Positions 2 to 23,500 of a DNA stretch of 23,500 bases are shown piece after piece. Under the pieces are notes generated by a model. It worked only from the letters and a program-made list of their open reading frames with translations, ran no database searches and was not told the DNA's origin. Each line of letters opens with the position of its first letter. Positions within the stretch are counted from its first letter, which is position 1. Origin of the DNA: a virus; the IMG/VR virus record IMGVR_UViG_3300030098_000628, positions 1-23,500 of that record. One strand, given 5' to 3'. The translations under genes were made by a program, and so were the position numbers.

Positions 2-1381
2 CTAATGACAAATTTCATCTCCCGCACTGGGCGGGTTCAAAACTGGATTGATAATCCTGAAGGTCGTCTGCCCGTATCATGTACTGTCTTTGTTGTAGAA
101 GACTCTATGGAGGGTAAGGATGGAATCGAAGCAAGCTGGCGATATGTCAGCCATGGACTCCGCTATGGAGCAGGAGTTGCGGTCCATTTATCTAAGCTCA
201 GACCCAATGGAAGTGAAAACGGAAAGGGTCTTACAGCTTCTGGACCAGTATCATTCGCAAAAATCTACTCACAATTAAATGAAACACTTAGAAGAGGCGG
301 TACCTACAAAAATGGGGCCGTTGTTTGTCATCTTGACATTGACCACCCCGATATTCTTGAGTTCGTGCGGGCTGATCGGACTTCCCTTGCCTGGATTAAA
401 AGATGCGTCGACCTTACAGAAGAAAATTGGTTCAACGCCGGATCTGAAGTTAGAGACTCCATCCTTCACGGGATCAAGTCAGGAGACATCTGGCTCAACA
501 AAATAAAACACGATAAAAATGGGGAACGTATCTATGGAAACGTCTGTCTTGAGGTATATTTGCCAACACGAGGAACGTGCCTCCTCCAGCACGTCAATCT
601 CGGTGCCACTACAATCGCCGACATACAAACGGCTATCAGTCAGGGTATGTCCGAGTTGTGCAATCTTCATAGCAGAACAGGCGTTGGAGGGACTGGAGAG
701 TACCTTCCAAGTGAAACGGACAGGCAGGTCGGACTTGGATTCCTTGGACTCGCGAATCTCTTACGGAGGTACGGAGTAACCTACAAGGAATTTGGATATG
801 CTCTCGAATCCGTAAATGATGGAAACCTTGATCCGAAGAATACAGCAGAAGAAATTGCCGTCGCGTTTAAGCGTGGCATTTATTCAGGTGAGCTTGTTGC
901 ACGCGCCCATAATATGGTTCGAGCCTACGCTATTGCTCCTACTGCTAGTTGCTCTTATAGAAGCAAGGATTTAGATGGGTATACATGTACCCCAGAAATT
1001 GCACCACCTATAGCTAGAACAGTTGATAGAGATTCTGGTACGTTTGGTGTACAAACTTATGAATATGGCGATGTAGAGATCGCTAGTGAAGTTGGTTGGG
1101 ATGCTTATAAGAAGGTCGCCGACGAACTAATGAAAATGTTAGATATAACAGGACTTCTTCACGGATACTCATTCAACTCATGGAGTGATGTAGTAACCTA
1201 CGACAATGCGTTCGTGCAAGAGTGGTTGAATTCACCCCAAACCTCCTTATACTATAGCCTTCAAGTAATGGGAGACGTTCAGGACAAGAGCGATGCGTAT
1301 GCAGCATTAAAAGATACCGACGTTGATGAATACTTGGAGGGGATTTTAAATGAACCCCTTACATGTGATTGTCAAGAATGA
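2..1381 (+). CDS. nrdA: Ribonucleotide reductase large (alpha) subunit, class I, 5'-partial
   Basis: Reduces ribonucleotides to deoxyribonucleotides for phage DNA synthesis. Numbering from the first ATG (position 5), the visible active-site residues are C26 (PVSC; E. coli C225), N179/C181/E183 (NVCLE; E. coli N437/C439/E441) and C192 before NLG (E. coli C462). A PTAS loop lies at 312-315, the tyrosine pair Y416-Y417 matches E. coli Y730/Y731, and a redox CDC pair sits at 454-456. The tyrosine pair, C-terminal cysteines and an adjacent nrdB show class I. Related cyanophage enzymes were once annotated as class II. The frame is open to the window edge, and only 25 residues precede the first active-site cysteine, so the gene probably begins upstream, although ATG at 5 cannot be excluded. 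The stop overlaps the nrdB start (ATGA). By hand count 721-780 is about 55% G+C, richer than the tail genes. Confidence 0.93.
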   Translation, partial: LMTNFISRTGRVQNWIDNPEGRLPVSCTVFVVEDSMEGKDGIEASWRYVSHGLRYGAGVAVHLSKLRPNGSENGKGLTASGPVSFAKIYSQLNETLRRGGTYKNGAVVCHLDIDHPDILEFVRADRTSLAWIKRCVDLTEENWFNAGSEVRDSILHGIKSGDIWLNKIKHDKNGERIYGNVCLEVYLPTRGTCLLQHVNLGATTIADIQTAISQGMSELCNLHSRTGVGGTGEYLPSETDRQVGLGFLGLANLLRRYGVTYKEFGYALESVNDGNLDPKNTAEEIAVAFKRGIYSGELVARAHNMVRAYAIAPTASCSYRSKDLDGYTCTPEIAPPIARTVDRDSGTFGVQTYEYGDVEIASEVGWDAYKKVADELMKMLDITGLLHGYSFNSWSDVVTYDNAFVQEWLNSPQTSLYYSLQVMGDVQDKSDAYAALKDTDVDEYLEGILNEPLTCDCQE

Positions 1382-2103
1382 TGAGAAAAACACCATACGA
1401 GAAATTAATCGAAAGGCGCCGTACTTGGACGCCTGTAAAAACAACCGCTGGAGAATTAAAACATGGAGCGGAAGAAACCATCTACCGTGCTCTTGCAATA
1501 CGTCATATGGAGCTACCAGTGGGTGCCTTTATTGAGGACGCCCTTGAAAAGAATGTTCCCGACCACGCTAGAGACTTACTTAGACTTAACGTAAAAGATG
1601 AGGAAAAACATGACCTTGCTCTGGGATACATTGCTGAAGCTATTGGGACTGACCCAGAAGCCGAAGCCGAAGCTCTCAGGTTGCGCCAAGCGTGGGAACT
1701 ACATCCCGACCACACAATTACTAAAGCGTTGGTAGCGGAACGTGCAATATTTTTCGTACTTCTTCCCTTCTTTCGTTATAACGGCGATAGTGGTCTTAGG
1801 ACTGTCAGCGCCGACATCAGTAGAGACGAACAAATACACGTGGCCACTAATAGCCTTGTATGTCGTGAGCTGGGCTTATCTGCTAGTAATAGTTTGGACA
1901 AGCTTAGGAAGGCCACCATTAACTGGATTCTTCAACCTCTAGGTAATTGTACCTACGATAGATATTTAGACAAAAAATTCTGGCTGGATTCGAGTGATAA
2001 TTTAATGTATCAAGGCAAGGCACCTGAATTAGTTGCCACCAAATCCGCTCGGATGCCAGCTTTCTTTGAACATAGTAATGCAAACCTCCCACAATATGCT
2101 TGA
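1378..2103 (+). CDS. nrdB: Ribonucleotide reductase small (beta) subunit, class I, without canonical radical tyrosine
   Basis: Ferritin-like subunit that should hold the dimetal cofactor and start radical transfer to NrdA. ATG at 1378 overlaps the nrdA stop; an in-frame TTG at 1369 is less likely. Length is 241 residues, against about 375 in E. coli. The metal-ligand pattern is complete: E45, E75xxH78, E121 and E151xxH154, with spacings close to those in E. coli R2. The radical tyrosine normally lies four residues after the first ligand histidine (E. coli H118/Y122). Here that position is L82, and the nearest tyrosine is Y84. A metal-based oxidant or another radical site is therefore inferred. 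A penultimate tyrosine (QYA end) could act in the alpha-beta transfer path. The family is recognised by the ExxH motifs and by position after nrdA. Confidence 0.88.
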   Translation: MMRKTPYEKLIERRRTWTPVKTTAGELKHGAEETIYRALAIRHMELPVGAFIEDALEKNVPDHARDLLRLNVKDEEKHDLALGYIAEAIGTDPEAEAEALRLRQAWELHPDHTITKALVAERAIFFVLLPFFRYNGDSGLRTVSADISRDEQIHVATNSLVCRELGLSASNSLDKLRKATINWILQPLGNCTYDRYLDKKFWLDSSDNLMYQGKAPELVATKSARMPAFFEHSNANLPQYA

Positions 2104-2266: not shown

Positions 2267-3109
2267 ATGGCTAAATGGGATGACTTCTATAAACCTGATA
2301 AGTACAAAGAATACTATGACTTGTCAGGTGAACAAACAGCTTGGGCTGAAAGTCAATTTGATATGAAGTCCGATGAAGGACGCCAAGCTTATGAAGAAAT
2401 AGAAACCAAATTCATTGATGAATTGTATGGTACTGAAGGTGCTGAATGGTCTACTGAAAACAGAAGTGAAGGAGAATTTTGGCAACGAGAAGAGTTTGAT
2501 TCTACCTGGGGTATGGATCTTAGACGTACAATGTTAGATGAAGATGGTGGTGAAATAACTTCCAGTCATCCTCAATACTACGAACATCTAACTAGAGGTG
2601 AAGTAGATTGGGCGTCCTATGAAAATGATTCTAAATATGTTTCTGCTTTTAAAGAGATTGGTGAAAGTGTTTATCAATTAACTGATGATGATTACTCTGA
2701 TGCTGAGAAAGTATCTTGGGTTAGAGAAGCAAACCAATCCATTACCGCTACTGAAGGTGATGGAGAGGAAGACAAATGGAAGACTGAATGGGAAGGTAAG
2801 TACGATCCTGATAAAATAACTAAAAAAGAAATAGGTAAATATCACGATGGTTCTCCTAAGTACGATTTATATATCGACGGTGAAAGACAACAAACCTTAC
2901 AAGATCTTTTCAACTCTGGTGAAGGTCGTCTCCCAGTTAACTCACCAGGAGAACACACTAAAAGAAAAGATAAGCGTGTGATAGGTCGACCTAATATACC
3001 TGGTGTCTCCTGGTCAAATGGAACACCAAGATTAACTAACCCAGTTCAACGTAGGATACCTAAGAATGCTAGTAATTTAGTCCAAAAGAATACAGGAGGT
3101 AAAGAGTAA
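2267..3109 (+). CDS. Uncharacterised protein, acidic and Trp-rich N-terminus with basic C-terminus
   Basis: 280 residues, starting at an ATG with a good ribosome binding site (AGAGGA at 2253-2258). The N-terminal two thirds are rich in Asp, Glu, Tyr and Trp. The last 80 or so residues are basic and rich in Pro, Gly and Asn. No signal peptide, transmembrane helix or enzyme motif is seen. It lies between the RNR module and the portal gene, and its stop overlaps the next ATG (TAATG), so it is probably expressed with the virion genes. A virion-associated or assembly role is an inference from position only. Confidence 0.75.
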   Translation: MAKWDDFYKPDKYKEYYDLSGEQTAWAESQFDMKSDEGRQAYEEIETKFIDELYGTEGAEWSTENRSEGEFWQREEFDSTWGMDLRRTMLDEDGGEITSSHPQYYEHLTRGEVDWASYENDSKYVSAFKEIGESVYQLTDDDYSDAEKVSWVREANQSITATEGDGEEDKWKTEWEGKYDPDKITKKEIGKYHDGSPKYDLYIDGERQQTLQDLFNSGEGRLPVNSPGEHTKRKDKRVIGRPNIPGVSWSNGTPRLTNPVQRRIPKNASNLVQKNTGGKE

Positions 3110-3945
3110 TGGCAGTTGATCTTAGCTTTGGTGCCAGTGGAGATTGGTTTGGTCATAGAGATTACACTGGAAACTTAAAAAAAATATGGGATGCTAATGA
3201 CCCAGGTGTTGATAGGCAGAAAAAATTAATGGCCGAAAGGCAGAAGATATTAAGCTGGATGAAAGACCCTGCTAACCAATCAAAGATTAGAGAACATAAT
3301 CAATTAGGTGTAGATCCTAGAGATGATGGAAGTGGTGGATTAGGTCACAGAATAGCTTCTGGGGATTTCTCTAAAAGATTCATGGGAACAAACATGGATA
3401 TAAATCCTGAGACAGGCGCTGCCTATTCAGAGGCCAGTAAAAATTACTTTGGTCATGCTGACCTAATGCACTCTAGAGCATCTGGACATTCATGGACTGA
3501 CATCCTTGGACACTTAGATGCTAATAAAGGTGATCTTAGAATGAGGAATGTCCCAGGTGGTGGTGGTTTATATGATGAAGTTAAAACTCAAGCTAACTTT
3601 GAAAAACAAACAGGCGATTGGATCAGTGCTTTAGGTAACCTTAAAGATGATTTTGGTTCTGCTATACAAGGACAAACCGAAGCATTTAATACTGGAATGG
3701 GTGGTGTAAGTGATGCTATAAAATCACAAACTGAATCCCACGAAAAGTATAGAGCTGATGAGATGTCATGGAGAAGACGAGCTGAACAAATGCAGATGAT
3801 GCAAATGGAAGAGGCACGTAGACAATCCAAAGCTAAACCTATTGTCCAAGTATTACCAGGTGCTTCAGCATTTGGCGGCGGTGGTGGAGGTACAGGAGCC
3901 TTTGCCAGAAAGAAAAAACAAACAACTGGACTTAATATATCATGA
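3109..3945 (+). CDS. Uncharacterised protein upstream of portal, possible gp7.3-like tail assembly protein
   Basis: 278 residues with a strong ribosome binding site (AGGAGGT about 10 nt upstream of the ATG). Residues 1-150 are Gly-, His- and Asp-rich. Residues 170-235 look helical and contain a Met/Gln-rich stretch (EQMQMMQMEEARR). The tail has six consecutive glycines and then a basic end, FARKKKQTTGLNIS. T7 gp7.3, encoded immediately before the portal, also has a basic Ser/Gly-rich C-terminus that ends in a GGGINI-type sequence. Position and end motif therefore suggest a gp7.3-type tail assembly or virion protein, but the rest of the protein is much longer than T7 gp7.3 and not recognisably similar. 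The stop overlaps the portal start (ATGA). Confidence 0.72.
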   Translation: MAVDLSFGASGDWFGHRDYTGNLKKIWDANDPGVDRQKKLMAERQKILSWMKDPANQSKIREHNQLGVDPRDDGSGGLGHRIASGDFSKRFMGTNMDINPETGAAYSEASKNYFGHADLMHSRASGHSWTDILGHLDANKGDLRMRNVPGGGGLYDEVKTQANFEKQTGDWISALGNLKDDFGSAIQGQTEAFNTGMGGVSDAIKSQTESHEKYRADEMSWRRRAEQMQMMQMEEARRQSKAKPIVQVLPGASAFGGGGGGTGAFARKKKQTTGLNIS

Positions 3946-5540
3946 CAGCCAAGAAAAGGTATGACGCACTCACAGGATTTCGTTCTGAGTATTTAAATCA
4001 AGCGGATGTATCGGCACGGCTAACACTCCCCTATTTAATCAGAGATGAGGAACAGTTTAGAGGAGCAACACGGGACTTGAAAACTCCGTGGCAATCAATC
4101 GGCGCCAAAGCTGTAGTTACCTTAGCTTCGAAGCTCATGCTTGCATTGCTACCTGCACAGACAAGTTTCTTCAAACTTCAAGTAGATGATTCACAGTTAG
4201 GTGAAGTACCTCCTGAAGTTAAGACTGAATTAGATTTATCCTTTGCAAAGATAGAGCGCACTATCATGGATGCTATCGCAGCTTCCGATGACCGTGTAGT
4301 AATACACCAAGCACTTAAGCATTTGGTAGTATCAGGTAACGCTCTAATCTTTATGGGTAAGGATGGGTTAAAGCTGTACCCGTTGAACCGTTTTGTTGTA
4401 GATCGAGATGGTAACGGAAATGTAATTGAGATCGTAACCAAAGAAAAAATTGCCAAAAAATTATTGAAGGATTCATTACCAGACATTTATCAAGAGATGA
4501 AAGGTATTGATCCCGATGAAGATAGAGAAGATTGTGATGTCTTTACTCATGTGAAGAGAGATGGCAATCGTTTTATTTGGCATCAAGAAGTTTTTGATAA
4601 AATCATTCCTAACTCTAGAGGTAAAGCACCATTAGATACTACTCCTTGGCTTCATCTTAGATTTAATACTGTAGATGGAGAAGCCTATGGGCGGGGTAGA
4701 GTAGAGGAATTTGTAGGAGATCTAAAAAGTCTTGAGGCATTGTCTCAGGCACTCGTAGAAGGATCTGCAGCGGCAGCTAAAGTTGTCTTTGTAGTATCAC
4801 CATCAAGCACTACTAAACCACAGACCTTAGCGTCTGCTGGTAACGGTGCTATCGTCCAAGGACGTCCAGATGATATAGGTGTAATTCAAGTAGGTAAAAC
4901 TGCTGACTTTGCTACTGCCTATAACATGGTTCAACAGTTAGAGCGTAGATTATCAGAAGCCTTTCTTATACTTACGGTACGCCAAAGTGAAAGGACAACA
5001 GCTGAGGAAGTACGCATGACACAAATGGAACTAGAGCAACAGCTTGGAGGTTTATTCTCCTTACTCACTGTTGATTTCTTAGTACCATATTTAAATAGAA
5101 AGCTATCGGTATTCCAAAAAACTGGACAGATACCTAAGTTACCAGACAAGGTAGTTAAACCTACCATAGTAGCTGGTGTTAATGCATTAGGTAGAGGTCA
5201 AGATAGAGAAGCGTTGGGTTCATTCCTAACTACTATCTCTCAAACAATGGGACCAGAAGCTACACAACAATTCATTAACCCTGAAGAAGTTATCAAACGT
5301 CTAGCTGCAGCTCAAGGTATTGATGTACTTAATCTTGTAAGATCTATGCAAGAAATACAACAAGAACAACAGCAAGCACAGCAACAACAGATGGCTTTAG
5401 AACAAGGTAAGGTTGATGCACAAATGGCATCAGCTCCAATGAATGATCCAAGTAAAAATCCACAATTAGCGGAGGAACTCGGTGGACAAACAGGCAACGC
5501 AAATGAAGCCGTCGCGCCCGCAACGAGCGAAGCGATCTAA
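3942..5540 (+). CDS. Portal protein (head-tail connector, T7 gp8-like)
   Basis: 532 residues, almost the length of T7 gp8 (536). The portal forms the dodecameric ring at the capsid vertex through which DNA is packaged and ejected. The family match rests on the N-terminal LTLPYLIRDE and TPWQSIGAKAV segments, the ALLPAQTSFFKL segment, the TVRQSERTTAEEVRM region near residue 350, and a Gln-rich C-terminal helix (EIQQEQQQAQQQQ). It is followed at once by the scaffold gene, as in T7. Start ATG overlaps the previous stop (ATGA). Confidence 0.95.
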   Translation: MTAKKRYDALTGFRSEYLNQADVSARLTLPYLIRDEEQFRGATRDLKTPWQSIGAKAVVTLASKLMLALLPAQTSFFKLQVDDSQLGEVPPEVKTELDLSFAKIERTIMDAIAASDDRVVIHQALKHLVVSGNALIFMGKDGLKLYPLNRFVVDRDGNGNVIEIVTKEKIAKKLLKDSLPDIYQEMKGIDPDEDREDCDVFTHVKRDGNRFIWHQEVFDKIIPNSRGKAPLDTTPWLHLRFNTVDGEAYGRGRVEEFVGDLKSLEALSQALVEGSAAAAKVVFVVSPSSTTKPQTLASAGNGAIVQGRPDDIGVIQVGKTADFATAYNMVQQLERRLSEAFLILTVRQSERTTAEEVRMTQMELEQQLGGLFSLLTVDFLVPYLNRKLSVFQKTGQIPKLPDKVVKPTIVAGVNALGRGQDREALGSFLTTISQTMGPEATQQFINPEEVIKRLAAAQGIDVLNLVRSMQEIQQEQQQAQQQQMALEQGKVDAQMASAPMNDPSKNPQLAEELGGQTGNANEAVAPATSEAI

Positions 5541-6483: not shown

Positions 6484-6702
6484 ATGGGATTAGGATACGA
6501 CCCTAACAATGCTAGAATAACTGGCTCAGGGTTCACAGTTAAATACGCAGTGAAGACTTCAGGTGATCCTGGTTTCCTTCCTGCTTACGCCCAGACATCA
6601 GGCGGAGCCGCTGCTGATACTACAACTGCACTAGCAGTTAAAGCAGATCGGTTAAGAATGTGTCAAGTAATTGCACCTGAATATGTGGAGAGTGACGTCT
6701 AA
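6484..6702 (+). CDS. Small conserved hypothetical protein
   Basis: 72 residues, starting 2 nt after the scaffold stop and sharing the A of its stop with the next ATG (TAATG). Gly-, Ala- and Thr-rich with no membrane segment or known motif. The tight packing between scaffold and psbA supports expression. Function unknown; it may be a minor structural protein. Confidence 0.65.
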   Translation: MGLGYDPNNARITGSGFTVKYAVKTSGDPGFLPAYAQTSGGAAADTTTALAVKADRLRMCQVIAPEYVESDV

Positions 6703-6800
6703 TGCCACAAGGTAAAGGTACATATGGGTCTCAAAAAGGTAGACCCCCTAAGAAAGGTACTAAAGGTACTACTAAAAAAACATCTAAAATCAAATACTAA
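6702..6800 (+). CDS. 32-residue Lys/Gly-rich basic mini-protein
   Basis: Reads [19 protein letters not shown] and then continues with Lys/Thr repeats to a KIKY end. Both ends overlap neighbours by one base (TAATG with the preceding gene and TAATG with psbA), the typical spacing of translationally coupled genes, and there is no unexplained gap. The high positive charge suggests nucleic-acid or virion binding. The opening [15 protein letters not shown] resembles short basic proteins encoded near capsid genes in other marine phages, though I cannot name a family. Too short to be certain. Confidence 0.6.
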
Positions 6801-7873
6801 TGAGTACAGCCACACTAACTAGACAATCTAATTGGAATAGTTTCTGCGACTGGGTAACAAGTACCAATAACCGCCTCTACGTGGGGTGGTTTGGTATACT
6901 CATGATACCATGTCTACTTACAGCAACTACCGCATTCATAATCGCCTTCATAGGCGCACCTCCCGTCGACATTGACGGTATCAGAGAGCCAGTTTCAGGC
7001 TCATTATTATATGGAAACAACATTATATCTGGAGCGATTGTACCAAGTAGTAACGCTATTGGTCTCCATTTCTACCCGATTTGGGAAGCTGCTACACTGG
7101 ATGAATGGCTCTACAATGGAGGACCATACCAACTCATTGTCTTCCACTTCCTTATTGGCATCGCAGCTTACATGGGACGCCAATGGGAACTTAGTTATAG
7201 ATTAGGCGCTAGACCTTGGATTCCAATTGCGTATTCAGCACCAGTATCAGCAGCCTTTGCAGTATTCCTCGTATATCCGTTCGGACAAGGAAGCTTCTCT
7301 GACGGTATGCCGTTGGGGATCTCAGGGACGTTCAACTTTATGTTTGTCTTTCAGGCAGAACATAATATCCTCATGCATCCTTTCCATATGTTGGGTGTTG
7401 CGGGGGTATTTGGTGGAGCTTTGTTCTCTGCTATGCACGGCTCGTTGGTCACCAGTTCAATCATTAAAGAAACTACCGAAGTAGAGTCACAAAATTATGG
7501 CTACAAATTCGGTCAAGAGGAAGAGACGTATAACATTGTCGCGGCTCATGGTTACTTTGGCAGACTCATATTCCAATATGCTTCTTTCAATAATAGCCGT
7601 AGTTTACATTTCTTCTTGGCTGTTTGGCCCGTCGTGGGCATATGGCTCACCTCTATGGGAGTCTCCACTATGGCATTTAATCTTAACGGCTTTAACTTTA
7701 ACCAATCAATTGTTGACTCAACAGGAAGAGTTGTCCCTACCTGGGCTGACGTCCTGAACAGAGCTAACCTTGGCTTTGAAGTTATGCATGAAAGAAATGC
7801 TCATAATTTTCCACTCGACTTAGCTGCTACTAATGTCACAGAAGTAGCTTTAACAGCACCTTCAATAGGTTAA
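6800..7873 (+). CDS. psbA: Photosystem II D1 protein
   Basis: 357 residues, a full-length D1 core subunit that replaces photodamaged host D1 in the thylakoid membrane during infection. All key residues are present with a uniform -2 offset from standard numbering, caused by a shorter N-terminus: Tyr-Z at Y159, Mn-cluster ligands D168, E187, H330, E331, H335, D340 and A342, P680 ligand H196, iron ligands H213 and H270, and QB-site F253 and S262. Q128 corresponds to the Gln130 form. The C-terminal extension after A342 (15 residues) would be removed by the CtpA protease. No intron interrupts the frame. The start is fused to the previous stop. Local G+C is about 50% (7381-7440), higher than the tail genes and in line with a host-derived gene. 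Confidence 0.99.
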
Positions 7874-8828: not shown

Positions 8829-9842
8829 ATGGCTAATACAGTTGTTTCTAGTATTGGTACCATTAACAATACCGCGACCACCCCGTTGGCGCTAGGTACT
8901 GCATATGATACCAAGTACGCAACCTATCTGAAGCTGTTCTCAGGCGAACTATTTAAAGCTTATGAGTCAGCTACAGTAGCAAAAGGAACTGTACAATCCC
9001 GTCAACTAAAGAACGGAAAAAGTTTACAGTTCATATTCACAGGTCGTATGACCGCAGATTATCATGAGCCAGGGACACCAATCCTGGGTTCAGGTGATCC
9101 TCCAGTAGCAGAGAAGACCATCGTATGCGACGACCTTCTCATTAGTTCTGCATTCGTATATGATTTAGATGAGACACTTGCTCATTATTCCCTTAGATCA
9201 GAGATCTCCAAGAAGATTGGACACGCTCTAGCTGAGGCATATGATAAGAAGATCTTCAGAACAATTGCACTATCTGCACGTTCTGCTCATCCAATCACAG
9301 CTGCTCCTGGTCCTGAGCCAGGTGGTTCCATAATCCAAATTGGATCTGGTAACCAGTATGATGCTCAGAAATTAGTAGACGCTTTCTTTGAAGCTGCTGC
9401 TATCCTTGATGAAAAGAACCTACCTAAGACAGGACGTACTGCCGTACTAAACCCACGTCAATACTACGCTCTAATCTCTCAGGTTGATTCAAATATTCTT
9501 AACAGAGACTTTGGTAACAGCCAAGGTAACTTGAACTCAGGTGAAGGACTTGTATCTATTGCAGGTATCAACATCCAACGTTCTAACAACCTACCTTTCC
9601 AAGCTGGTACTATAGCCGCTGTAGATGGTGAGAACAATACCTATTCTGGTGCATTCGCAAACCACGCTGGTCTTATCTATCAGAAGGACGCTGCTGGTGT
9701 TGTAGAAGCAATCGGTCCTCAAGTACAAACAACCGGAGCTGACATTAAAACAATGTATCAAGGCGACTTGATCGTTGGACGTCTAGCAATGGGTGCTGGT
9801 ACTCTAAACCCTGCTGCTGCAATTGAAATCCAAACCGCTTAA
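8829..9842 (+). CDS. Major capsid protein (T7 gp10-like, HK97 fold)
   Basis: 337 residues, close to T7 gp10A (345). It forms the icosahedral shell. The family is recognised from the N-terminal part (LFSGELFKAYE, GTVQSRQLKNGKSLQF, TGRMTADYHEPGTPI), the DDLLISSAFVYDLDE segment, and the conserved C-terminal region with GLIYQKDAAGVV and YQGDLIVGRLAMGAG. It follows a 161-bp structured leader and is followed by two small genes and a strong terminator, as in the high-expression capsid unit of T7. The ATG lacks a typical Shine-Dalgarno sequence. Confidence 0.96.
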   Translation: MANTVVSSIGTINNTATTPLALGTAYDTKYATYLKLFSGELFKAYESATVAKGTVQSRQLKNGKSLQFIFTGRMTADYHEPGTPILGSGDPPVAEKTIVCDDLLISSAFVYDLDETLAHYSLRSEISKKIGHALAEAYDKKIFRTIALSARSAHPITAAPGPEPGGSIIQIGSGNQYDAQKLVDAFFEAAAILDEKNLPKTGRTAVLNPRQYYALISQVDSNILNRDFGNSQGNLNSGEGLVSIAGINIQRSNNLPFQAGTIAAVDGENNTYSGAFANHAGLIYQKDAAGVVEAIGPQVQTTGADIKTMYQGDLIVGRLAMGAGTLNPAAAIEIQTA

Positions 9843-10642: not shown

Positions 10643-11269
10643 ATGGCTTTCCCTACCACTAACGCTGCTCAGGAACTACCAGCAGTCAATGAGATATTGG
10701 CGTCTGTTGGTCAGGCACCTGTAACAACACTAGATCAAACCAACCCAGACGTTGCGATTGCATATGATACATTACTTAATGTGTCTCGTGAAGTACAGGC
10801 TGAAGGCTGGACGTTTAATACTGAAGAGTATTATCCGATGACACCAGATGCAAATGGTGAAATAATAATAGCAAATAATATATTACAAATAGATTTACAT
10901 GATGAAAAGGATAACTCCTATGAATCAGTTAGAAGAGATGGTAAGTTATATGAGAAGATAAACCATACCTATGATTGGACTACCTTAACTGGTTGGGATA
11001 CAGTACGTTGTGATATAGTATGGTTCTTTGATTGGGTTGATCTACCTAGACCTATGCAAGATTATATTGTAGCTAAAGCAGCCGCTGTTGTCTCTAGTAG
11101 AATAGTTGGAGATCCACAACAGTATAGAATATTGCAACAGAAAGAGTTTGACAATAGAGCTAGAGCTTTAGAATACGAGTGCAATCAAGGTGACTATACC
11201 TTCTTTGGACATAAACGTGGAGAAAAGGTATATGATTCTTACAAACCTTATCAAGCATTGTATCGCTAA
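10643..11269 (+). CDS. Tail tubular protein A (T7 gp11-like adaptor)
   Basis: 208 residues from ATG 10643 (T7 gp11 has 196). An in-frame codon at 10529 would place the start before the terminator and inside the preceding gene, so it is rejected. The protein forms the adaptor ring that joins portal to nozzle. Family features are the opening AVNEILASVGQAPVTTLD, the SREVQAEGWTFNTE segment, the DLPRPMQDYIVAKAA segment and the Arg-rich helix with QKEFDNRARALEYE. The stop overlaps the gp12 start (TAATG). Confidence 0.95.
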   Translation: MAFPTTNAAQELPAVNEILASVGQAPVTTLDQTNPDVAIAYDTLLNVSREVQAEGWTFNTEEYYPMTPDANGEIIIANNILQIDLHDEKDNSYESVRRDGKLYEKINHTYDWTTLTGWDTVRCDIVWFFDWVDLPRPMQDYIVAKAAAVVSSRIVGDPQQYRILQQKEFDNRARALEYECNQGDYTFFGHKRGEKVYDSYKPYQALYR

Positions 11270-14082
11270 TGGCAAGTATAACCCAAACAATTCCAAACTT
11301 TTTAGGTGGTGTATCTAACCAACCTGACGATAAGAAACTACCAGGTCAAGTTAAAGAAGCTTTAAATGCATACCCTGACCCTACGTTTGGGTTACAGAAA
11401 AGACCTGGTTTGAAATTCCTTAAAGAGCTAACTGATGGTAGTTCAGCTTTTGACAATAACGATTTAGATACTGCTAAATGGTTTTTTTATAACAGAGATT
11501 CTGATGAAAAATATATAGGCTGTGTAGTAGGTGCAAGTAGTAGTCCTTATGGTGAGATACATATATGGAATACTACTGACCTTGTTAAATGTACAGTTAA
11601 TTATCATAGTGCTGCTAGAGCTTATTTAGATGCTGTAAATGCTTCTGATTATGATGTATTAACTATAAGAGATACCAGTATTATTACCAATAAAACTAAA
11701 ACTATAACAACAGTAGCAGGTGACTCATTTACTGCAGGTACAACTGGCACTGTAAAAATGCAGTTGGTTGAGTATAGTCAGAAATACACTGTAACTGTTA
11801 ATGGTACTGATTATGTAGTATCTAATAAAGCTGGTGATACACCATCTGGTGACGCTGATACTACTACATTCCTTAATGCTAAAGATATTTTAACAGCATT
11901 AAAGAACCTGATAGATGCTGCTAGTATATCTAATTTAAATACATTAGTCATCGGTTCTACATTAGAGTTATGGAGTACTGGAGCTGCCTTCACTTTATCA
12001 GCCTTTGGTGGTAGAAGTGGTGACGCTTTAACTTCTTATCAAGATGAAGTGGATTCAACTTCTGATCTAGCAACAGCTTCTAAACATGATAGAATAGTTA
12101 CAGTTAAAAATACATCTAATACAAATGATACTTATTACGCTAAATTTATAGCTGATGAAACTAGTGGAAGTGCTCCTTATTTTGGATCAGGACATTGGGA
12201 AGAAACCCTTAAACCTGGTGAAACTAAAGGTGTAACAGAATCTACAATGCCTCATCATTTATACAGTACTGCTAAGAATGTCTTTTCATTTAGTGCTATT
12301 AATGGTTTAGAACATGGTGGTGGAGCTGGTGCCGCAGGTTCATTAGCATCTCGTAAATGGGAAGAGCGTAAGGTAGGTGATGATACTACTAACGAAGATC
12401 CTTCATTTGTAGGTACCACTATACAGCAAGCTTTCTTTTACAATAATAGATTAGGATTCTTAACAGAAGATAATGTATCTATGAGTAAATCTGGTAAACA
12501 TTATGACTTCTATATGACTTCAGCTCAAACATCTACAGATGCTGATCCTATAGATGTTAATTGTTCTAGTACCAGACCTGCTAATTTACATGCTGTTATA
12601 CCATCAGCAGGTGGTTTAATGTTATTTAGTGAAGATCAACAGTTTATGATGTTCTCTGCTGACGGTAACCTTAAACCTACTACAGCATTGATTAGAACAT
12701 TGTCGAACTATAAAATGGATACTCAAATAGATCCTATCGACATTGGTACTCATATTAATTTTGTTAGTAAAACACATAGCACAGCAGGATTTACAAGGAT
12801 ATTCTCATTAGCTCCTGCAGGTGCTGGTCAAGCTCCTCAAGTTGTAGATATAGGTCGTGTAGTAGCTGAATATGTACCAGTCACAATTGATAGTATGATG
12901 GCTAGTACACAGAATAGTTTTATAACTATGTACGGTAAAACTTCTGATAAGGCTTACTTCTTTAGAACTTATAGTGATGGAGAAAAAGACTTAATTCAAA
13001 CATGGTTCAGCTGGCAGTTACCAGGTAACATACATTATCTAACAACTGATTCAGATACACTATATGGTATTATTAAGACTGGATCTGGTGGAACAGCTAG
13101 GTATAATCTAGTTAGTGCTACACTTACTCAAACACCTGAAGAGACAATTATAGTAACAGCAGAAGGACAACAGGTAAATCCCCATATGGATTTCTATACA
13201 GCTGCTACTAATGGTTTATCAGGAGGATCTGAAAAGAAAGTTGTCTATGATTCAACTAATGATTTTTCAAAATGTTATATACCTTTTGAAGATGTTACAA
13301 CGTTAACCCCTGTTATTGTTATTGCTGGTAATGCTACTTCTAATTTCTCTGGTACTACTGAGTCTGGTTTTACAATTACGCCCACAAGAGCTTCGGATGG
13401 TGATGGTACCTATTTCAAAGTACCGTCGAAAGACTTATCTGGACAAGCGGCGAATGTATATGTAGGATATAAATATAATTATGATATAACTTTACCTAAA
13501 ATATACTTCAGACCTGAACCTAATAGAACTGATTATACAGCTAATCTTACTGTAGCTAGGTGTAAATTTTCTATAGGTCAGTCTAGTGTAGTAGGTTTTA
13601 AATTACAAAGAAAAGGAGTACAAGCTGCTACACAATCCTTTACAGGAGATGGTAGTACTACAGCTTTCTCACCTGATTTTACTGTTAAAGATAAAGCAGA
13701 TGTAATAGTTAAAAAGAACGGTGCTAAACAATTATTAACTACAGATTATACAATAGCAGATCATGCAACTAACCCAGATCAAATTACCGTTACTTTTAAT
13801 ACAGCACCCGCAGCTGCTAGTACTGCAGCTAATGTTACTACACCAGCTGATTCGATAGAAATATATGTAGATAATTGGTATACATTATCACCAACACAAG
13901 AGGCAAACTATTACTTAGGTGATGATGTACCTCTTGAAACACAGAATGTATTTACTGTACCTATACATCAGAAATCAGACAACTATACCCTAAGAGTCTT
14001 TAGTGACTCACCTTTCCCTGTATCTTTAACTTCAATGGCATGGGAAGGTAATTATTCACCCCGCTATTATAGACGAACATGA
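11269..14082 (+). CDS. Tail tubular protein B (T7 gp12-like nozzle) with inserted module
   Basis: 937 residues, longer than T7 gp12 (794). It forms the tail nozzle. Recognised from the opening TQTIPNFLGGVSNQPD and RPGLKFL, the central FFYNNRLGFLTEDNVSMS and LMLFSEDQQFMM segments, and the end VSLTSMAWEGNYSPRYYRR. Residues about 790-869 hold a segment (SFTGDGSTTAFSPDF ... LLTTDYTI ... VTFNTAP ... IEIYVDN) that matches the N-terminal module of the tail fibre encoded at 22198, and the normal gp12 end resumes after it. The insertion explains part of the extra length. Codons strongly favour A and T at third positions; 12421-12480 is about 27% G+C by hand count. Confidence 0.94.
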   Translation: MASITQTIPNFLGGVSNQPDDKKLPGQVKEALNAYPDPTFGLQKRPGLKFLKELTDGSSAFDNNDLDTAKWFFYNRDSDEKYIGCVVGASSSPYGEIHIWNTTDLVKCTVNYHSAARAYLDAVNASDYDVLTIRDTSIITNKTKTITTVAGDSFTAGTTGTVKMQLVEYSQKYTVTVNGTDYVVSNKAGDTPSGDADTTTFLNAKDILTALKNLIDAASISNLNTLVIGSTLELWSTGAAFTLSAFGGRSGDALTSYQDEVDSTSDLATASKHDRIVTVKNTSNTNDTYYAKFIADETSGSAPYFGSGHWEETLKPGETKGVTESTMPHHLYSTAKNVFSFSAINGLEHGGGAGAAGSLASRKWEERKVGDDTTNEDPSFVGTTIQQAFFYNNRLGFLTEDNVSMSKSGKHYDFYMTSAQTSTDADPIDVNCSSTRPANLHAVIPSAGGLMLFSEDQQFMMFSADGNLKPTTALIRTLSNYKMDTQIDPIDIGTHINFVSKTHSTAGFTRIFSLAPAGAGQAPQVVDIGRVVAEYVPVTIDSMMASTQNSFITMYGKTSDKAYFFRTYSDGEKDLIQTWFSWQLPGNIHYLTTDSDTLYGIIKTGSGGTARYNLVSATLTQTPEETIIVTAEGQQVNPHMDFYTAATNGLSGGSEKKVVYDSTNDFSKCYIPFEDVTTLTPVIVIAGNATSNFSGTTESGFTITPTRASDGDGTYFKVPSKDLSGQAANVYVGYKYNYDITLPKIYFRPEPNRTDYTANLTVARCKFSIGQSSVVGFKLQRKGVQAATQSFTGDGSTTAFSPDFTVKDKADVIVKKNGAKQLLTTDYTIADHATNPDQITVTFNTAPAAASTAANVTTPADSIEIYVDNWYTLSPTQEANYYLGDDVPLETQNVFTVPIHQKSDNYTLRVFSDSPFPVSLTSMAWEGNYSPRYYRRT

Positions 14083-22197: not shown

Positions 22198-23500
22198 ATG
22201 GCTACAACTTCAAATTCATATACGGGTAACAACTCCACCACTGATTACTCTTTCACATTTCCATATTTAAAAAGTTCCGACATTAAAGTTAGTGTCGATG
22301 AAGTGGTTCAATCACTTACAACTCATTACACATTACATAATGCAACAACAATTCGTTTTGGCACAGCCCCAGCGACTGGCAAAAAGATAAAGATTTATAG
22401 AGATACAGCCAGCGCTCAGTTGGCTGCTACCTTCTACCCAGGATCAGCTATTAGATCTAGCGATTTAAACGATAACTATACACAGAATTTATATGTTACT
22501 CAAGAAGCTGAAAATGATTCCACTGAGGCTCTTGGTAACTCTAGGGTTCTTGAAAGTGGTGCTTATGTATCTGCTATTACGAAAGCTACAACTGCTGTAA
22601 CTACAGCAAATACAGCTTCTACGAATGCATCGAATGCTGTCAGCACAGCTAATACAGCCAGTTCAACAGCTAGTACAGCCTCAACTAATGCAACTAATGC
22701 TGTAAATACGGCAAATACAGCCTCAACAAACGCAACAAATGCAGTCAATACAGCCAACACAGCAAGTAGCACAGCTACCACAGCCAACACCACAGCAGGA
22801 GCAGCTGACACAAAAGCAGATAATGCTGTCGCGACGGCAAACACAGCTTCGACGAACGCTACGAACGCTGTATCGACAGCCAACACAGCAAGCACAAACG
22901 CCACGAACGCTGTTAGTACAGCTAATACAGCTTCAACTAATGCTACTAACGCGGTAAATACAGCTAATGCTGCTAGTGCTTCTGTGGCTGCAGCTGTACT
23001 ATATACACCGAAATCTAATAAAACAACGCTACAAGCTACAGAACCTACTGAAGATGGGTATTATGAAGTAGCAGACTCAAGTGATTTAGTTAACGGAACC
23101 TGGACTACTAATTCAGTTTCTTATACACTAAGTGGTATACCTAGCACATTCCAAGGAGCTGCAGGATTAACAGTTCGTTTATCTTATACTCACTCCAGTA
23201 AAACATATGCTTACTCTAGTTACTTTGCTAACGATCCAGAAGAAAGGTATATTTCAGATACGAGAACCTTTGGCCCTACAGTAACCTATACAGTTAAGGT
23301 AGCTACAAAGACTTCTCAACATAGATATAATGGTTCAGGTGCGTCTGATGGTTTTACTATAGATGCTCAACAAGCACCGTTCTTGGAACTTAACCCAGGA
23401 ATGACATATAAATTTGATCAAGCAGATAGTTCTAATTCTGGTCACCCACTTGCTTTCTATGAAGTGGCAGATAAATCTACAGGATATACTACAGGGGTAA
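22198..23500 (+). CDS. Tail fibre protein, 3'-partial (runs off the window)
   Basis: About 434 residues are visible and the frame is open to the window end. Residues 7-70 form a beta-rich attachment module (SYTGNNSTTDYSFTF, LTTHYTL, IRFGTAP, IKIYRDT), and DLNDNYTQNLYV follows, as in the virion-binding N-terminus of T7 gp17-type fibres. Residues about 131-263 are an Ala/Thr/Asn/Ser repeat shaft. Beyond it are two beta domains, one around YYEVADSSDLVNGTW and one with PGMTYKFDQADSSNSGHPLAF. The second is a motif I know from marine phage fibre and structural proteins. The host-binding tip lies beyond the window. It follows gp16 directly, as gene 17 does in T7. Confidence 0.9.
   Translation, partial: MATTSNSYTGNNSTTDYSFTFPYLKSSDIKVSVDEVVQSLTTHYTLHNATTIRFGTAPATGKKIKIYRDTASAQLAATFYPGSAIRSSDLNDNYTQNLYVTQEAENDSTEALGNSRVLESGAYVSAITKATTAVTTANTASTNASNAVSTANTASSTASTASTNATNAVNTANTASTNATNAVNTANTASSTATTANTTAGAADTKADNAVATANTASTNATNAVSTANTASTNATNAVSTANTASTNATNAVNTANAASASVAAAVLYTPKSNKTTLQATEPTEDGYYEVADSSDLVNGTWTTNSVSYTLSGIPSTFQGAAGLTVRLSYTHSSKTYAYSSYFANDPEERYISDTRTFGPTVTYTVKVATKTSQHRYNGSGASDGFTIDAQQAPFLELNPGMTYKFDQADSSNSGHPLAFYEVADKSTGYTTGV
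22588..22986 (+). repeat. Ala-spaced heptad repeat in the tail-fibre shaft
   Basis: A 14-residue unit of the form TANTAST-NATNAVS recurs about seven times with some degenerate copies (for example TANTASSTATTAN). Ala occupies positions 2 and 5 of each heptad, giving a tightly packed coiled-coil or fibrous shaft. The 42-nt units differ at many third codon positions. Codon families vary between copies (AAT/AAC, ACA/ACG/ACT, GCT/GCA/GCC) while the protein repeat is kept. Confidence 0.85.

Follow-up and report, generated by a model that had tools for sequence, protein, structure and literature searches.

The DNA analysed here, termed the window, is a virus fragment of 23,500 bases held as an IMG/VR record. 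Two ribonucleotide reductase (RNR) genes open it on the plus strand, coding for a catalytic subunit α (2-1381) and a small ferritin-like subunit β of 241 amino acids (1378-2103), and share four nucleotides (ATGA). The α gene runs off the window at its 5' end, so that the visible α is without its N-terminus. The remainder of the window is the structural region of a T7-like cyanophage, with a head-tail connector (3942-5540), psbA (6800-7873; Photo_RC, PF00124), a high-light-inducible protein gene (hli), the gene of the major head protein (8829-9842) and that of a tail protein (11269-14082). Pfam matches to PF24653 and PF03906 mark a β-barrel protein of the cyanophage outer-membrane-like type and the N-terminal domain of a T7 tail fibre, respectively. 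The order of genes around the RNR, i.e., exonuclease, MazG, α, β, small genes and portal, is that of phages S-CBP1, S-CBP4 and Syn5. Between positions 6800 and 8667, psbA is followed by hli, the Phage_OMP barrel protein and then the capsid; unlike this order, hli lies upstream of psbA in S-CBP1 and S-CBP4. At the right end (22198-23499), the T7-type tail-fibre domain leads into long Ala/Thr/Asn-rich repeats with a match to an alanine zipper.

The α subunit belongs to Pfam family PF02867 and is of the class Ø type. It matches the cryo-EM structure of the S-CBP4 class Ø α (7urg_A) over 450 residues (5-454) at an E-value of 1.8e-221, the next solved RNR reaching just 4e-10. The finger-loop Cys182 (nt 545) sits in the sequence GNVCLEV; its core NVCLE, described as a class Ø-specific motif (PMC9669993), is kept in 138 of the 141 relatives scored. 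An active-site Cys pair (C27 and C193; nt 80 and 578) is present. The tyrosine dyad occupies residues 417/418 when counted from base 2 (nt 1250-1255), and the protein ends on CDCQE with the C-terminal CDC at residues 455-457 (nt 1364-1372). The initial annotation had given the dyad as Y416/Y417 of NrdA, together with the CDC pair, and both statements hold, the former with a count from the ATG at nt 5. Its assignment of the enzyme to class I survives in part: dimetal site, YY dyad and CXC tail are all intact, but the α subunit is that of class Ø, also named Cyano SP, as judged by the 7urg match and NVCLE. A Pfam scan of the visible part of α, cut as it is at the 5' end, returned no ATP-cone.

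Among family models, α scores best with the AdoCbl-dependent one (TIGR02504, E 1.4e-21, versus 1.7e-14 for NrdE_NrdA). One could therefore regard α as essentially class II-like and β as a metal store or oxygen scavenger in place of a radical generator, a reading to which the missing α-binding tail of β (PMC9531940) also lends itself. We consider it highly improbable. The YY dyad is kept in α and stacks on the catalytic Cys in 7urg (PMC9531940), β retains W17, D150 and a terminal Tyr that a ferritin store would not need, and the β gene overlaps the α gene.

Comparison of β with phage protein families gave a match to phrog_6799 ('RNR class Ia beta subunit') at an E-value of 3.7e-130. Matches were found in 56 phage records; for 48 of these, S-CBP1 (78%) and P-SSP7 (74%) among them, the identity is 60-80%. 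Nearly all of these phages infect Synechococcus or Prochlorococcus or are uncultured, with the addition of Microcystis phage Mic1, and the closest relatives, on other contigs, are 94-98% identical. Harrison et al. identified the P-SSP7 protein in 2019, pointed out that the Tyr is missing and proposed 'Cyano SP' as a new subclass (PMC6370689). Burnim et al. described the group in 2022 as 'class Ø', with Phe or Leu at the radical site, a length of ~240 amino acids and a short C-terminus ending just past a Tyr (PMC9531940). Since both studies report the trait, the protein in the window is an ordinary further member of a published family, and its missing Tyr was already published.

At the level of sequence, homology of β to class I R2 proteins was not recovered by Pfam or by hhalign against 13 R2s. 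Pfam and NCBIfam scans of β returned no match, and weak Pfam similarity was likewise reported by the class Ø authors (PMC9531940). The class I R2 family PF00268 was matched by 19 of 70 relatives at E <= 1, with a best value of 1.9e-5. A single-sequence phmmer search of the PDB with β produced spurious matches alone (the sperm protein Izumo and a nitroreductase), which were discarded; a profile of the 70 relatives placed the Chlamydia trachomatis class Ic R2 at the top, at a non-significant E-value of 0.057. Alignment of class Ø profiles with the 13 class I R2s by hhalign gave a spurious, out-of-register match of helix pairs and nothing else. Residue equivalence with E. coli Y122, W48 and Y356 is therefore a predicted one, argued from motif spacing and fold.

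The fold itself is clear. An AlphaFold2 model of β, built from a 70-sequence alignment, reached a pLDDT of 90.1 and a pTM of 0.87, with low confidence in the C-terminal part (block means of 41-54). Each of the 50 Foldseek matches listed for the model is either an R2 subunit or a cyanobacterial aldehyde-deformylating oxygenase, the top one at E 4.6e-4 and probability 1.00. In VIA-align, where chance helical bundles can reach Z values of about 13, ~220 of the 241 residues of the model aligned at Z 18-20 to R2s from many subclasses (best: 2rcc_B, Z 19.9, 218 residues, rmsd 3.0). Aligned with the E. coli holocomplex structures 6w4x and 9db2, the model is matched up to its residue 241, opposite chain residue 357, which would place Y240 on Y356. 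As model confidence is low at the C-terminus, this placement is no more than suggestive.

The two E/D+EXXH motifs of β (E45+E75xxH78 and E121+E151xxH154) supply all six dimetal ligands: E45 (codon at 1510-1512, plus strand), E75, H78, E121, E151 and H154. The first ligand is Glu, as in classes Ic and Id; in classes Ia and Ib it is Asp (PMC6370689). The first EXXH motif and the residue four positions past its His, L82, are encoded at 1600-1623 on the plus strand (codons 75-82). To assess conservation we used 194 related loci, of which 191-192 cover each site. The six ligands, together with W17 and D150, are invariant in these sequences, one H154 being unreadable, and Asp74, preceding the second ligand E75, is invariant in 191. 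W17, D150 and Y240 are the predicted radical-transfer residues. Y240 stands one residue before the end of the protein (Y240-A241-stop) and is kept in 190 of 191 relatives, as would be expected for an inter-subunit relay Tyr. Judged from conservation across the 194 loci, the pattern of residues is not a product of chance. The ligand positions, L82 and the compact length of 241 residues had all been read correctly in the initial annotation.

In an alignment of 13 diverse class I R2s, a Tyr is invariant four residues past the first ligand His. The corresponding residue of β, Leu82, lies on an unbroken helix (62-89) of the AlphaFold2 model, and among the 191 relatives covering this position 188 have Leu and three have Phe. 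The radical Tyr of classes Ia and Ib is thus truly absent. A sequencing or assembly error, or decay of the gene, as the source of Leu82 has next to no chance of being correct: the reading frame is intact, every one of the 191 relatives carries Leu or Phe, and relatives of 94-98% identity occur elsewhere.

A stable radical might instead reside on another Tyr of β that a diiron or dimanganese site has oxidised. Three Tyr columns, Y7, Y84 and Y240, are conserved best, and the candidates, Y84 and Y7, are Tyr in 187 of 191 and 181 of 190 relatives, respectively. Nevertheless, Phe is tolerated at both positions in natural relatives with intact ligands (four of them in the case of Y84). Y84 is moreover at His+6, ~200 degrees round the continuous helix from the face of His+4, and Y7 belongs to an N-terminal helix. 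A radical on either residue is accordingly very unlikely, and Y84, which had been named at the outset as the residue whose placement at the radical site would overturn the Leu82 reading, was rejected as an essential radical site.

The most likely reading, to which we assign a probability of roughly 80%, is that β is the radical-generating subunit in an RNR of class Ø (Cyano SP) from a marine T7-like cyanophage and works with a metal-centred oxidant. The oxidant is most likely held by the metals because Leu82 is unable to carry a radical. O2 or a reduced form of oxygen would activate the dinuclear site formed by E45, E75, H78, E121, E151 and H154, and the oxidising equivalent would stay on the metals, most likely as Mn(IV)/Fe(III) as in class Ic and less likely as Mn2 as in class Id. 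It would then be drawn along D150, W17 and Y240 of β to the α Tyr dyad (418, then 417), which would generate a thiyl radical on Cys182 and permit nucleotide reduction for phage DNA synthesis. What the sequences show is that these residues are present and conserved; the path, the metals and the enzymatic activity are predicted.

Class Ic pairs Phe at the radical site with a Glu first ligand (PMC8463856). The same pairing of a redox-inert His+4 residue with Glu in β argues for a metal-held oxidant and makes Mn/Fe likelier than Mn2. A less probable though serious candidate is an oxidant like that of class Id, an Mn2(III/IV) cluster that superoxide activates. The Glu first ligand is common to classes Ic and Id (PMC6370689, Table 3), and the class Id oxidant is also metal-centred (PMC8463856); yet class Id keeps a second-sphere Tyr, with Cys or Ser before the second ligand, where β has Leu82 and Asp74. 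The initial annotation had grouped Ic and Id together as the enzymes lacking the Tyr. This is right for Ic but not for Id, which retains the Tyr without oxidising it (PMC8463856; PMC6370689), so that Ic alone resembles β at the radical site. The choice between Mn/Fe and Mn2 is not settled by sequence.

Besides the lack of recovered sequence homology to R2s and the low model confidence at the C-terminus, two features count against the preferred reading: the second-sphere Asp74 differs from both the Glu of class Ic and the Cys/Ser of class Id, and β is without the usual C-terminal extension for binding α. That a second-sphere Asp fits neither class had already been remarked for P-SSP7 (PMC6370689). 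Tentatively, class Ø β may use a metal-centred oxidant distinct from those of both Ic and Id; a conceivable example is a minimal β, lacking the α-binding tail, in which Leu82 and Asp74 tune an Mn/Fe or Fe/Fe site. If true, this would represent a sixth route by which aerobic RNRs initiate radical chemistry. As to what drives the cofactor, the initial proposal of iron scarcity in the ocean is unsupported and the literature favours host metal pools: for Cyano SP, dependence on intracellular metal of the host has been argued, with NO resistance as a speculative idea (PMC6370689), and the abundance of the group is reported to follow where marine Synechococcus and Prochlorococcus occur (PMC12918982).

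Burnim et al. ascribed about half of class Ø to marine bacteria (PMC9531940). In the genome collection searched, 17 β loci fell in bacterial or archaeal assemblies (L090-L106), and 14 of these have a T7-like portal gene, similar by descent to that of the window, no more than 10 kb away. Several of the portal-adjacent loci also carry psbA or capsid genes. Of the remaining three, L094 has a phage-type exonuclease, L103 runs off the end of its contig and L101 is of ambiguous origin. The adjacency to T7-like portal genes suggests a phage origin for many 'bacterial' class Ø genes, their contigs having been placed in MAGs or in the genomes of infected single cells, which bears on the claim of class Ø in marine bacteria. 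At L094, a 2OG-Fe(II) oxygenase gene (2897-3460; PF13640, E 1.6e-16) is inserted between the class Ø α and β genes. A formylglycine-generating-enzyme-like gene (6537-7343; FGE-sulfatase, PF03781) lies near the class Ø RNR of L101, whose contig is assigned to Verrucomicrobia.

The two S-CBP4 records in GenBank, as well as that of P-GSP1, have five rather than six A before TTTTGG in the β gene (L082, 6001-6740; L088, 2501-3240; L195, 1495-2207). The lost A shifts the frame, and the annotated coding sequences end at ~193-205 amino acids, short of the conserved C-terminal Tyr; the second S-CBP4 record misses one further A upstream. These deficits are likely homopolymer sequencing errors.

The cofactor of class Ø is an acknowledged open question, which touches on the origin of aerobic ribonucleotide reduction and on how abundant marine phages make DNA. 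A 2026 preprint still lists the group as lacking biochemical characterisation (PMC12918982), and in the open-access literature searched we found no class Ø β biochemistry, metal measurements included. The natural variants (Leu or Phe at 82, Tyr or Phe at 84 and 7) are useful for the choice of constructs.

Among known systems, the S-CBP4 class Ø RNR (Burnim et al. 2022, PMC9531940; 7urg) is matched throughout: NVCLE, the YY dyad and the CXC tail in α, and a downstream β of ~240 amino acids with Phe/Leu at the radical site and a Tyr one residue before its end. Sequence divergence is the sole difference, the β subunits being 74-77% identical. The P-SSP7 Cyano SP RNR (Harrison et al. 2019, PMC6370689) likewise has α upstream of β and no Tyr, and shows the same E,E,H,E,E,H ligands (E42, E71, H74, E117, E147, H150) and second-sphere Asp pair (D70, D146), at 74% identity in β and with a numbering shift of 3-4. 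The class Ic R2 of Chlamydia trachomatis (Mn/Fe) has the fold in common (4d8f_D, Z 18.9), together with an inert His+4 residue (its Phe127) and the Glu first ligand, features seen here as L82 and E45. It differs in its second-sphere Glu (Asp74 here), its length (346 versus 241 amino acids) and its α lineage, and neither the profile search noted above nor a significant PF00268 match of β links the two sequences. With the class Id R2 of Flavobacterium johnsoniae (Mn2), β has in common the Glu first ligand and would also have a metal-centred oxidant, unlike it in carrying L82 and D74 in place of the retained Tyr and the Cys/Ser second sphere. Classes Ia and Ib, with Asp as first ligand and Tyr at His+4, differ at both positions (E45, L82). 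The α/β pair of the window falls into the class Ø/Cyano SP lineage, which stands apart from the class I subclasses defined by biochemistry.
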